In this document: one piece after another, positions 19,217-26,806 of the stretch
Numbering within the stretch: position 1 is the first letter of the stretch
Layout: every line of letters starts with the position of its first letter
Assembly: GCA_003650925.1 (NCBI GenBank)
Contig: QMSP01000023.1
Span: forward strand, 1-32,456
DNA: 32,456 nt
Direction of reading: 5' to 3'
Origin: Thermoprotei archaeon
GTDB lineage: Archaea; Thermoproteota; Thermoprotei; QMSL01
Made by a program: the position numbers and the translations under genes
Notes under the pieces: model-generated
The model's database searches: none
What the model was told of the DNA's origin: nothing
What the model saw: the letters and a program-made list of their open reading frames with translations, nothing else

Positions 19217-19229
19217 TTCGCCTAGCGAA
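19217..19229 (-). repeat. Small hairpin 3' of the TnpB-like gene (candidate element right end)
   Basis: TTCGC-cta-GCGAA is a perfect 5-bp inverted repeat 22 bp after the TnpB-like stop. IS200/IS605-type elements carry subterminal hairpins at both ends, and TnpB guide RNAs come from this side. No second copy in the window proves an element boundary. Confidence 0.3.
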
Positions 19230-19251
19230 ACTGTCTCATTTTTCATAGGCA

Positions 19252-20298
19252 TTAATAGGCGTTTATAGATTTTAAACACCTTATTGCTAGAAGATACGCT
19301 GAGCTTACATGTATATCTAATCCTAGTTTTCTGCTTAGAGGTATTGCATCTACTGATGTGAAAGCAGGATTTACCTGTACAAATTTTCCTTTCTTCTTTC
19401 TTACCATGACCTTGGCATGTTGCAATAGTTCTGCATAGGCGAATCTAGACACTTTTCTACTAGCACTTTTTGTCTTCATCTTTTTCTTAGGAATCTTCCT
19501 AATCTTTTCAAAGACAAAATACTTCACATTATGGTAACAGGCATAGTTAATCAGTTCTGAAAGAGCCTTCAGCCTTAGGTCTTTGGCTTTATTCTTGGGA
19601 AAACCAACTAATGTCACCTCTGGGAAATGTTTTGTCTTCACATCTCTTATGTTTCCATTAGTATCTACAATTACCATGCATATCCTATCAGGGTTTATAT
19701 CAAAACCAGCAATTAGATGTGCTTTAGAGCTAACCTTAACCTTGGTAGTATGTTTAGCATAAAGCTCTAAAGGTATATGAAGGTGCAAATAGTATTTTCC
19801 TTTGTTGAAAACCACACTTACTGAATATGGCATACCATTATTAGCTCGTTGGATAAGCTCCTCAATTAATGGAATGTGCCTTGAGTGAAACTTAACCTTA
19901 GCCTCTAACCATTCATGTCTTCCATCTACATGTGGAATCTTGATTAGTACTTTATCAACCGATACCAGTCTGATATTCCTATTTCCCTTTTCACATCCCT
20001 TACCAACACTATATAGTTGTGGTTTCTTGAAATTCAGTCTTTCCTGATCGAGATATGCCATAGCTCTCTTAGTTGCTGAATATGCATAATGAGCATTACC
20101 TATAAACTTGGTAACCCTCCTAGTAGCTTCTTCATGTTTCAAACCCTTCTTCATTAACCTATATGCCATCTCAACGGCATCTCTGAATAGTCGCCCAGTG
20201 TAGAGGAGTTTTGCTAATGCAAATCTATCTTCAATAACTAACCTACCTTTTATTGTAACTTTTTCTTCACTACTATTTTCCCGTCTTCTACGTGCCAT
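19252..20298 (-). CDS. TnpB-like (IS605 OrfB family) RuvC protein without zinc ribbon
   Basis: 348 residues. A basic N-terminus (MARRRR) and a helical/beta region precede the RuvC-like nuclease: motif I AGFDINPDRICMVIVD (Asp200), motif II YFVFEKIRKIPKKK (Glu264) and motif III GLDIHVSSAYLLAIRCL (Asp328). All three acids are present, so nuclease activity is possible. The CxxC...CxxC zinc ribbon that TnpB usually carries between VNPxxTS (here VNPAFTSVDA, 309-317) and motif III is absent, leaving only about 10 residues. ATG 20298 lies inside the abrB-like frame, so the two genes overlap by 49 bp. TnpB proteins are RNA-guided nucleases of IS200/IS605 transposons; no tnpA is visible. It may be a non-autonomous element or a domesticated nuclease. 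Confidence 0.8.
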   Translation of the reverse strand: MARRRRENSSEEKVTIKGRLVIEDRFALAKLLYTGRLFRDAVEMAYRLMKKGLKHEEATRRVTKFIGNAHYAYSATKRAMAYLDQERLNFKKPQLYSVGKGCEKGNRNIRLVSVDKVLIKIPHVDGRHEWLEAKVKFHSRHIPLIEELIQRANNGMPYSVSVVFNKGKYYLHLHIPLELYAKHTTKVKVSSKAHLIAGFDINPDRICMVIVDTNGNIRDVKTKHFPEVTLVGFPKNKAKDLRLKALSELINYACYHNVKYFVFEKIRKIPKKKMKTKSASRKVSRFAYAELLQHAKVMVRKKKGKFVQVNPAFTSVDAIPLSRKLGLDIHVSSAYLLAIRCLKSINAY

Positions 20299-20396
20299 TC
20301 TATCACATCCCCCACATCTATATTCAGAGCAACACGGACGGCTCTTGGGATGGCTACTAAGTATCGTTTCGAAACTCTCGATTCAGCTATTTTCAT
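20250..20396 (-). CDS. AbrB/SpoVT-type DNA-binding protein, 48 residues, overlapping tnpB-like gene
   Basis: The frame from ATG 20396 to TAA 20250 reads MKIAESRVSKRYLVAIPRAV, then continues with an ALNIDVGDVIEW core and a VEDGKIVVKKK end. This is the swapped-hairpin AbrB fold (ESRVSxKYQVxIPKxVRxxLxIxxGDxIxW in relatives), as in archaeal antitoxin-like regulators. AAGGA lies 5 nt before the ATG, and box A is at 20427-20436. The last 49 bp overlap the start of the TnpB-like gene in another frame, so both must come from one mRNA and are probably coupled. It likely represses this promoter; the perfect palindrome at 20442-20461 is a candidate site. No toxin gene other than the TnpB-like protein is adjacent. 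Confidence 0.85.
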   Translation of the reverse strand: MKIAESRVSKRYLVAIPRAVRVALNIDVGDVIEWHVEDGKIVVKKKLQ

Positions 20397-20426
20397 AGTA
20401 ATTCCTTAGTAATCTTCTCAGAAAAA

Positions 20427-20436
20427 CTTATAAATC
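20427..20436. promoter_or_regulatory. Box A shared by abrB-tnpB (minus) and a plus-strand RNA
   Basis: The plus strand reads CTTATAAATC and the minus strand GATTTATAAG; the core TTATAA is symmetric. On the minus strand it predicts a start near 20406, 10 nt before the abrB-like ATG. On the plus strand it predicts a start near 20457, at the first base pairs of the structured segment. Confidence 0.55.
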
Positions 20437-20441
20437 TTCTG

Positions 20442-20461
20442 CTACCAATATCTATTGGTAG
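20442..20461. repeat. Perfect 20-bp palindrome beside the abrB-tnpB promoter
   Basis: CTACCAATA-tc-TATTGGTAG has 9-bp arms without mismatch. It lies just upstream of box A for the minus-strand genes and between box A and the start site for plus-strand transcription, so a dimer bound here could control both directions. It could also be a left-end hairpin of an IS605-type element. Confidence 0.6.
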
Positions 20462-20616
20462 TTTCGATTCCGATGAAGGTTGAGGAGATGAACTTTGGAT
20501 GTGTCTCCATGTCGCTGAGGGGAGTTAGGAACAAAATGACTAGCTCTCGTAGGAGGCATGGAGACGAAACTCGGGTAATGAAAGCTTATGTAGGCAATCA
20601 TAGACCTACGTAAGCT
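20457..20616 (+). ncRNA. Candidate structured RNA divergent from abrB-tnpB
   Basis: No gene is present here, but four nested or serial helices are. GTTTC (20461-20465) pairs with GAAAC (20566-20570) and closes a junction. AAGGTT (20476-20481) pairs with AACTTT (20491-20496). GTCTCCATG (20503-20511) pairs with CATGGAGAC (20557-20565), with GAGTTAG/CTAGCTC (20522-20528/20540-20546) above it. A separate 12-bp hairpin follows (20583-20594 with 20605-20616). Three stems contain a G-U pair that is allowed only if the plus strand is transcribed (it becomes A-C on the minus strand). A box A 26 bp upstream would start the RNA near 20457. I see no match to tRNA, SRP RNA, RNase P RNA or a C/D guide. The 3' end is unknown. 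Confidence 0.5.
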
Positions 20617-21559
20617 AGAACCCTCTAACATAGGGCTTGCCTAGTGATGCTGGAGCCCCTATTCGCTTCCTTATTCTTTCAAAGCTTCCTACCAGGAGAA
20701 CAATTATTGTAGCAACGTAAGGGAAAGTGCCTAGAAGTGATGGGTCGATCCCCATGGCCTGTAGAGGCATCTGAAGCCAGTACTGAAGCACTTCAGTTGT
20801 CCCAAATAGATAAGCTCCTATCATAGCTCTTAGTGGATCCCACATGGCGAATATTACAAGAGCGAGCGCTATCCAACCTCTTCCAACGGTTATACCTTCA
20901 ACCCACATGGGCGTGTAGGCCAGGGATATGTGAGCACCAGCTAGACCAGCCATAGCACCTCCAAAGGTTGTACATATGTATCTAACTAAGTAGACATTGA
21001 CCCCCATAGCATCAGCTGCTGACGGATCCTCCCCTACAGCTCTTATCCAGATCCCATATTTCGTCTTGTACATTATGAACCAAAGGATGAGCGTTATAAA
21101 GTATGAAGCATACACAAGAATATCGTGGTGAAAGAATCCTTCTCCAATGATGGGAATCCTGCTGAGGCCAGGTATTTTCACGGGCCTTAGAGCTCTCTTA
21201 AGGGCTATTCCAACATAGTCCCTAGCCATGAGGCTACTAAGGCCAGTGCCGACCATGACAAGAGCTAGTCCAGCAACCACTTGATTAGCTTGAAGGCTTA
21301 TGCATACAAATGCATGAAGAAGACCTATTATGGCTCCAGCTACGATTGCAGCCAGTACTCCAAGTTCTGGACAGCCCGTGCTATAAGCTACGATGAAGCC
21401 AGTAGCAGCACCTATCAGCATTATCCCCTCAAGTCCTAGATTAAGAACTCCAGACCTCTCAGCATAGACTTCGCCTAAAGATGCTAAGAGGAGAGGAGTG
21501 CCAGCCTTTATGGAGATATTGAGTAGATGGCCAAGCTCTATAATGAGCGAGGAGGTCAT
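20615..21559 (-). CDS. Nucleoside ABC transporter permease (BMP-type, NupQ/YufQ-like)
   Basis: 314 residues, mostly membrane helices. PLLLASLGEVYAERSGVLNLGLEGIMLIGA (about residues 19-48) is the hallmark of this permease branch. ANQVVAGLALVMVGTGLSS, GEDPSAADAMGVNVYLVRYICTTFGGAMAGLAGA (the coupling EAA-like loop) and GRGWIALALVIFAMW follow. It pairs with the second permease to form the channel of a sugar-type (RbsC-like) importer fed by the BMP-domain lipoprotein-like binder. ATG 21559 overlaps the upstream permease stop by ATGA and has GGAGGT upstream. Last gene of the four-gene operon. Confidence 0.93.
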   Translation of the reverse strand: MTSSLIIELGHLLNISIKAGTPLLLASLGEVYAERSGVLNLGLEGIMLIGAATGFIVAYSTGCPELGVLAAIVAGAIIGLLHAFVCISLQANQVVAGLALVMVGTGLSSLMARDYVGIALKRALRPVKIPGLSRIPIIGEGFFHHDILVYASYFITLILWFIMYKTKYGIWIRAVGEDPSAADAMGVNVYLVRYICTTFGGAMAGLAGAHISLAYTPMWVEGITVGRGWIALALVIFAMWDPLRAMIGAYLFGTTEVLQYWLQMPLQAMGIDPSLLGTFPYVATIIVLLVGSFERIRKRIGAPASLGKPYVRGF

Positions 21560-26423: not shown

Positions 26424-26557
26424 CAATTACCATTAACAAAGTACCTAATAGACCTATCACTGAGAGATGAAGGTGGATATCCATGCTCGTTCCTTGAGAA
26501 GAGGCTATAGCTAAGCTGTACAACATATACTAAGGGGATGATGAGGGGCAGAAGCAT
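26423..26557 (-). CDS. Small 44-residue ORF upstream of the HTH-PRTase regulator
   Basis: ATG 26557 to TGA 26423-26425. The protein begins MLLPLIIPLVYVVQLSYSLF, one short hydrophobic segment, then a polar tail with NEHGYPPSSLSDRSIRYF. A strong box A at 26587-26596 predicts transcription from about 26566, only 9 nt before this ATG, so it would be read as a nearly leaderless mRNA. Its stop overlaps the ATG of the regulator (TGATG), which has no ribosome-binding site of its own. Layout, not similarity, supports it; I do not recognise the protein. It could be a membrane micropeptide or simply a translated leader that feeds ribosomes to the regulator. Confidence 0.45.
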   Translation of the reverse strand: MLLPLIIPLVYVVQLSYSLFSRNEHGYPPSSLSDRSIRYFVNGN

Positions 26558-26562
26558 TGGAT

Positions 26563-26596
26563 TGTACCTTTCTGTACCATAATGTTCCTTTTTATA
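26563..26596 (-). promoter_or_regulatory. Promoter with three 10-bp-phased repeats (operator)
   Basis: On the plus strand TGTACC, TGTACC and TGTTCC begin at 26563, 26573 and 26583, exactly one helical turn apart. The minus-strand box A TATAAAAAGG (26587-26596) touches the third copy, and the other two cover the expected start site near 26566. Repeats on one face of the helix between box A and start site are a typical archaeal repressor arrangement. The neighbouring HTH-PRTase protein is the natural candidate to bind here. Confidence 0.6.
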
Positions 26597-26623
26597 CTCT
26601 CAATACCATCATGACCCCATAAG

Positions 26624-26633
26624 ACTTATAAGG
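26624..26633 (+). promoter_or_regulatory. Box A of the kink-turn RNA candidate
   Basis: ACTTATAAGG on the plus strand. Its centre is about 26-28 bp from G26656, the first bases of the GC-rich structured stretch, and no plus-strand gene follows. Confidence 0.5.
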
Positions 26634-26654
26634 GGTAGCAATTTATGAGCTTAT

Positions 26655-26806
26655 TGGTGCCCCTCGGGTGGGTGAGGGGAGCAATGCTCCCGTAGCTTGC
26701 CCAAGGGAGACCGTGATGAACCTAACCGTGTCAGATATAGTTGATGAAGATACGGTTTAGGTGAACGGCATTCCATATGACCTGATGAGAGCTGGTCTAT
26801 GGGGAC
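26655..26806 (+). ncRNA. Candidate structured RNA with a canonical kink-turn
   Basis: This gene-free stretch is GC-rich in its first 60 bp and folds well as plus-strand RNA. CCCCTC/GAGGGG (26661-26665 region with 26674-26679) or GGGAGC/GCTCCC can form the 5' hairpin. Then CCGT (26711-26714) pairs with ACGG (26765-26768), GAT (26715-26717) is a 3-nt bulge, GA (26718-26719) faces GA (26763-26764), and ACCTA (26720-26724) pairs with TAGGT (26758-26762): C-stem, bulge, tandem sheared G-A pairs and NC-stem of a kink-turn, the L7Ae site. The stem goes on with CCGTGTC/GATACGG (26726-26732/26749-26755), whose G-U pair holds only on this strand. CCATA-t-GACC/GGTC-TATGG (26774-26783/26793-26801) is a final hairpin reaching the end of carA. 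It matches no RNA class I know. The 3' end is a guess. Confidence 0.5.

Follow-up and report, generated by a model that had tools for sequence, protein, structure and literature searches.

Cas12 descends from the TnpB nucleases; for TnpB, others have shown that an element is retained when the cut site is repaired from the occupied copy. In the TnpB systems described in the papers compared here, the guide RNA is located at or just past the 3' end of the gene. Of the systems studied so far, IS607 TnpB with a RAGATH-18-derived reRNA, e.g. that of ISFba1 (PMC11061315), comes closest to the family treated here. The scaffold of IS607 TnpB systems stops at the element boundary, the next nucleotides of the host serve as guide, and the TAMs are rich in G (GGG, AGGAG or GAGGG; PMC10711439, PMC11061315). 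Insertion of IS607 elements takes place at GG, preferably (G)GG, and causes no duplication; the ends of these elements are short direct motifs and not structures of 130 nt (PMC6188088).

The window analysed here, a stretch of 32,456 nt from contig QMSP01000023.1 of a Thermoprotei archaeon, contains a structured RNA on the plus strand between carA and a regulator gene. This RNA is most probably a guide scaffold, comparable to an omegaRNA or reRNA, of a family of TnpB-like transposable elements, and the copy beside carA is one without the tnpB-like gene.

The short element beside carA

The following features were assigned to this copy:

26547 to 26768, plus strand: short mobile element without tnpB, 222 bp; left end GG..., right end ...GAACGG
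26547 to 26600, minus strand: left end and remnant of the 3' end of a TnpB-like gene, from comparison with full-length copies
26625 to 26632, plus strand: TATA box CTTATAAG of the RNA, perfect, centred 25 nt upstream of the RNA 5' end
26654 to 26768, plus strand: conserved RNA scaffold, match to covariance model R1 with 125.5 bits
26659 to 26710, plus strand: 5' hairpin with a 13-bp stem and an upper stem GGGAG/CUCCC, from covariation; resembles Rfam Sso133
26711 to 26768, plus strand: kink-turn hairpin, from sequence and covariation
26769 to 26788, plus strand: putative guide segment of presumed length in unique flanking DNA; possible 3' tail of a read-through transcript

The scaffold RNA makes up the 3' half of the element. 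Left end and promoter are retained, the RNA is intact, and the gene is reduced to a stub whose antisense reading (26547 to 26600) resembles the C-terminus ...ERNTMIQKATV of the TnpB-like protein. The left-end motif of this copy, GGCAGAAGCATTGGATTGTACCTTTCTGTA, reaches a score of 28 out of 32 against the left end of the family. The putative guide begins with CATTCCATATGACCTGATGAG and lies between the element and the stop codon of carA at 26797.

In an earlier note on this DNA the RNA had been regarded as an orphan and, alternatively, as a cis-acting element antisense to carA. Neither view could be maintained: about 15 copies of the RNA are present in the same genome according to the covariance model, and the element ends 28 bp short of the carA stop, carA being the insertion site only. 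A second hairpin proposed at 26774 to 26801 is located outside the element, in the unique flank by the carA stop, and does not belong to the conserved RNA. The arrangement of carA beside the regulator was not found in the loci of relatives that were examined for an empty site of this copy.

Structure and promoter of the RNA

The kink-turn that the earlier note had described in this intergenic region is present in the sequence with all of its parts. The C stem is formed by CCGU (26711–26714) and ACGG (26765–26768), the bulge consists of the three nucleotides GAU (26715–26717), and GA (26718–26719) is opposite to GA (26763–26764). In the NC stem (26720–26732/26749–26762), ACCUA (26720–26724) pairs with UAGGU (26758–26762), and this stem is lengthened by CCGUGUC/GAUACGG. 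It is closed by a loop of 16 nt (26733–26748) with TGATGA inside. The GC-rich pairings suspected towards the 5' end likewise proved to be a real hairpin with strong covariation.

Folding and covariation both bear out a structured RNA on the plus strand. The fold of this strand has a z-score of -4.86, and an equal fold was reached in none of 200 shuffles. A structure of 35 pairs was drawn by eye for 18 copies from the same sequences that were aligned, model-free, with MAFFT; here 95% of the cells were paired, 12 pairs were altered on both sides and the covariation score was matched by none of 500 shuffles. Pairing dropped to 35–47% when the partners were slid by 1–3 columns. With 107 distinct sequences, the compensatory changes looked for occurred as double changes at all 35 pairs, including the C stem of the kink-turn (CG to GC). 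The covariation score was then 0.523 in comparison to 0.169 for shuffled sequences (0/500 shuffles reached it), in an alignment built with the covariance model and thus biased to its structure; slid controls gave at most 0.11. Because of this covariation, a chance origin of the structure is excluded. The 3-nt bulge and GA/GA are retained in 78 of the 107 rows, several exceptions being antisense rows; the GA/GA core and the bulge are near-invariant while the stems covary. Judged from the motif, binding of L7Ae to the kink-turn is plausible and may occur.

The promoter motif noted upstream was located as CTTATAAG, whose distance to the RNA start at 26654 recurs in other copies. Upstream of the RNA, 53 of 109 copies have a TATA match of at least 7/8, in most cases at -25 or -65; for shuffled sequence the share is 8%. 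Due to this enrichment it is very probable that the RNA possesses its own promoter.

Some copies vary in structure. Those of the -65 subtype (e.g. L072, L080 and L090) have about 40 extra nucleotides at the 5' end of the RNA, which are rich in GATGA and possibly form one more structured domain. The loop at the tip of the kink-turn hairpin contains short direct repeats (GATAYARTT type) whose number varies among copies (e.g. L019 and L022). Two copies on different contigs (L138 on C57, L139 on C8) have an identical 5' half and different kink-turn hairpins, which resembles recombination.

Copies in archaeal genomes

When the own genome and 60 relatives were searched at the DNA level, 11 places matched in the own genome, and seven of the relatives had matches as well; several of the matches were located at contig ends, as expected of repeats. 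With the covariance model, the RNA was detected in 18 of 81 genomes of the class, with up to 20 copies per genome. Both ends could be identified for 15 full elements (about 1.3–1.5 kb) and 31 short ones (164–340 bp). The short elements have no gene; the full-length copies carry a TnpB-like gene head-to-head with the RNA. The family is best read as TnpB-like transposable elements of the Thermoproteota and some other archaea. On one contig of the Desulfurococcales (L163), several RNA copies occur inside about 4 kb.

The window also contains a full-length, divergent relative of the short element, which belongs to a different subfamily:

about 19219 to 20623, no strand assigned: full-length element of the other subfamily
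19252 to 20298, minus strand: gene of a TnpB-like RuvC nuclease, 348 aa; D200, E264 and D328 invariant
20498 to 20623, plus strand: RNA of the full-length locus, R1 match with 30.6 bits, E 6.6e-6

The C stem of its RNA is GGGU/ACCC instead of CCGU/ACGG. This subfamily has another left end and the right end ACCC, and a GG core is not evident. A protein with 78% identity to the TnpB-like protein of the window is encoded on a contig labelled as Odinarchaeota (L147), which points to transfer or mis-binning.

The TnpB-like partner protein

At loci found through the RNA, the ORF of the family, where present, is always located on the opposite strand and head-to-head with the RNA. To counter bias, a second search started from the protein and yielded 80 named archaeal loci, 51 of which had a complete N-terminus and upstream sequence. 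In 44 of these 51 loci the RNA was located divergently upstream, at a distance of 33–78 or 205–307 nt; an RNA upstream on the same strand as the nuclease gene was found in none of the 51, and a lone downstream match belongs to an adjacent element. Among the loci outside the training set of the second model, the divergent upstream RNA was present in 18 of 25. Instead of the position at the 3' end and on the same strand, typical of the TnpB family, the RNA has a 5' and divergent one in these 44 loci.

The RuvC triad (D200, E264, D328) is invariant across 53 proteins of the family. A zinc ribbon was not recognised between RuvC-II and RuvC-III, as CxxC is missing there in all 53 proteins. The protein encoded in the window had no Pfam match, and its NF040570 score was below the cut-off (37.8 vs. 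100 bits). Among the NCBIfam profiles, guided_TnpB, TIGR01766 and Cas12f2 matched proteins of the family weakly. A PDB sequence search with the single protein gave no match, and one with a profile gave weak matches to Cas12.

Structure prediction reached a pLDDT of 45.9 from the single sequence and of 90.6 (AlphaFold) with an alignment of 53 sequences. The best PDB fold matches of the AlphaFold model were Cas12f, Cas12k, ISFba1 TnpB (8iaz) and ISDra2 TnpB (8exa), with Cas12f at the top (E 4.9e-9, TM 0.60); all of these are RNA-guided. Other matches (RuvC, RuvX, Tex, Spt6) were limited to the RNase-H-like half. A fold search for a viral relative returned TnpB-like and RuvC proteins and nothing specific. 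According to the predicted structure, the partner is a protein of the TnpB/Cas12f fold; its RuvC triad is intact, and it presumably acts by cleavage.

Insertion sites and mobility

When copies were placed side by side, the shared RNA sequence stopped just after ...GTGAACGG, and the left side started with GGGGCAGAAACATTA. At 48 distinct insertion sites, homology breaks off abruptly on either side of the element. The left flank was informative at -1 (G in 41/48) and -2 (G in 26/48) only; in the right flank, +1 was always T or C in the 48 sites, and the positions beyond were near random.

The one clean empty site that was found concerns a GH99-like gene of the own genome (L067, contig C21), which is split by a full-length copy of 1418 bp, with its halves on either side. 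Precise excision would restore an open frame of 366–367 aa, for which GG is needed once; the proline of PLLGPYD, which depends on this GG, is present in most uninterrupted GH99-like homologues of other genomes. Two further loci were rejected: a second candidate for an empty site, at L128, apparently requires a large deletion and is not clean, and L112 as another interrupted gene is out of frame by the same boundary rule. In its sequence features, i.e. ends with a GG core and G-rich left flanks, the family matches the IS607 elements, with GG at both ends and in the target and no target-site duplication, as deduced from this one empty site.

A Y1 transposase is not available as mover in the own genome, which has none. 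A serine recombinase TnpA was not seen within the elements of the family, which are therefore at most non-autonomous. The own genome encodes four IS607-type serine recombinases (L238–L241), all of them outside these elements. The left end of one autonomous IS607-type element, GGGTCAGAAACCTT...CTTTCTGTA, resembles that of the family, in this one example. Mobilisation in trans by an IS607-type serine recombinase through the GG core is probable, although these observations are suggestive only. Three of the four recombinases adjoin a TnpB-like ORF, and two of these ORFs show a zinc ribbon.

Proposed function and alternative explanations

The RNA and the element end at the same position on the right side, and a transcript that reads through this end would therefore finish in unique host sequence. 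With a G-rich left flank, the RNA at the right end and a variable 3' tail, the anatomy fits the scheme of the IS607 systems and has the same polarity. From position and analogy, we infer that the 3' flank may serve as guide. The RNA is not a full member of an Rfam family, the best match being Sso133 with 27 bits at 26644–26709 (gathering threshold 44); the statement of the earlier note that its class could not be named no longer applies, as it resembles the guide RNA scaffold of a TnpB-like mobile element.

The TnpB-like protein would bind the scaffold and take the first flanking nucleotides as guide. The guided nuclease would then cut the matching empty site beside the G-rich motif of the left flank, and repair from the occupied copy would retain the element. 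A nuclease made by full copies would also use guide RNAs provided in trans by short copies such as that beside carA, and movement would probably be performed by IS607-type serine recombinases at the GG core. L7Ae might bind at the kink-turn.

The conserved structure could also be the mere DNA end of a MITE-like element, i.e. hairpins recognised by a transposase, the RNA having no function. This is improbable, even if the structure terminates a mobile element on the right side and the short copies with both ends identified outnumber the full ones (31 vs. 15). A DNA end does not account for a separate TATA box at a constant spacing from the RNA, for the conservation of G-U-containing pairs and of the RNA-type GA/3-nt bulge while the stems covary, or for the constant divergent link to a nuclease of an RNA-guided fold, and ends of IS607 elements do not consist of 130-nt structures (PMC6188088).

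It is quite unlikely that the TnpB-like protein is an RNA-guided regulator similar to TldR, or a defence effector, and not a nuclease for transposon retention. A guide RNA that is divergent and has a promoter to itself would be conceivable for a regulator, and the architecture differs from that of canonical TnpB; however, the copies are mobile and numerous, and D, E and D are invariant in 53/53 proteins, unlike in TldR, which has lost its active site. Hardly credible, finally, is a host sRNA (an antisense regulator or an L7Ae-bound RNA of the H/ACA, C/D or RNase P type) that travels with the mobile element or became fixed in it and has an incidental link to the nuclease, as its box-C-like GUGAUGA kink-turn and the weak Rfam matches to Sso133 and an H/ACA family might suggest. 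The many copies at scattered insertion sites, their unique 3' flanks and the nuclease linkage in 44/51 loci, on which an H/ACA or C/D guide was rejected, speak against it, and in Metallosphaera Sso133 itself precedes genes of this nuclease family in divergent orientation.

Beyond the reading as a guide scaffold, a wider one is put forward with considerable reservation: the family might represent an archaeal lineage in its own right, with RNA-guided nucleases that have no zinc ribbon, a divergent, self-promoted guide RNA and a box-C-like kink-turn bound by L7Ae, in which many guide-only elements without nuclease, such as that beside carA, spread and persist by lending the guides of their insertion sites to a nuclease whose gene lies at another place in the genome. 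If true, a divergent, self-promoted guide RNA with a motif that binds a host protein would widen the range of architectures known for RNA-guided nucleases of transposons, and its partner nuclease, with about 350 residues and no zinc ribbon, would be a very small hyperthermophilic candidate. A testable function can now be offered for the sRNA family Sso133 of Sulfolobus and likewise for a family of putative transposases without assigned role.

Comparison with known systems

This last family is TIGR01765 of NCBIfam, named 'putative transposase', which has a name without assigned function and no RNA noted; it is matched by over half of the family proteins (29/53, best 1.3e-22). Sso133 (RF02814, Sulfolobus sRNA133) was found with 93.6 bits (threshold 44) at two loci of Metallosphaera yellowstonensis (L192 and L194), at both of them divergently upstream of the same nuclease family. 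Due to these matches, Sso133 can be regarded as the 5' half of a relative of the RNA; its model spans the 5' hairpin and omits the kink-turn half and the element boundary.

Common to the IS607/RAGATH-18 systems and the archaeal family are a non-coding RNA that is independent of the coding sequence, a G-rich TAM (here deduced from the left flank), an element of the IS607 type and the TnpB fold. As in the archaeal RNA, a possible kink-turn is present in RAGATH-18 (PMC11061315), and the guide follows the conserved RNA, an order that is probably the same in the archaeal family. RAGATH-18 did not appear among the Rfam matches at gathering or E ≤ 5, in a release for which the presence of this family was not confirmed. 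The position of the RNA differs: it lies downstream of tnpB in IS607/RAGATH-18 and upstream, divergent and with its own TATA box in the archaeal family. Unlike IS607 TnpB, the archaeal protein has no zinc ribbon and scores far below the cut-offs of the TnpB family. The hosts differ as well, IS607/RAGATH-18 occurring mainly in gut bacteria and the present family in archaea.

The fold of a RuvC nuclease (8exa) is shared with TnpB of ISDra2 (IS200/IS605), and both the ISDra2 omegaRNA and, presumably, the archaeal RNA consist of a structured part followed by a guide from the flanking sequence. In IS200/IS605, however, the omegaRNA lies on the tnpB strand, shares sequence with the 3' end of this gene and arises by processing of its mRNA, whereas the archaeal RNA is divergent; the absence of a Y1 transposase from the own genome is a further difference. 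Cas12f (type V-F) has the fold in common, but the archaeal protein is smaller and without zinc ribbon, and a CRISPR array was not seen at the loci of the family. In the open literature that was covered, no description of such a divergent arrangement was found. Compared with these systems, the archaeal family looks like a branch, apparently not yet described, of the nuclease family from which CRISPR-Cas12 arose.
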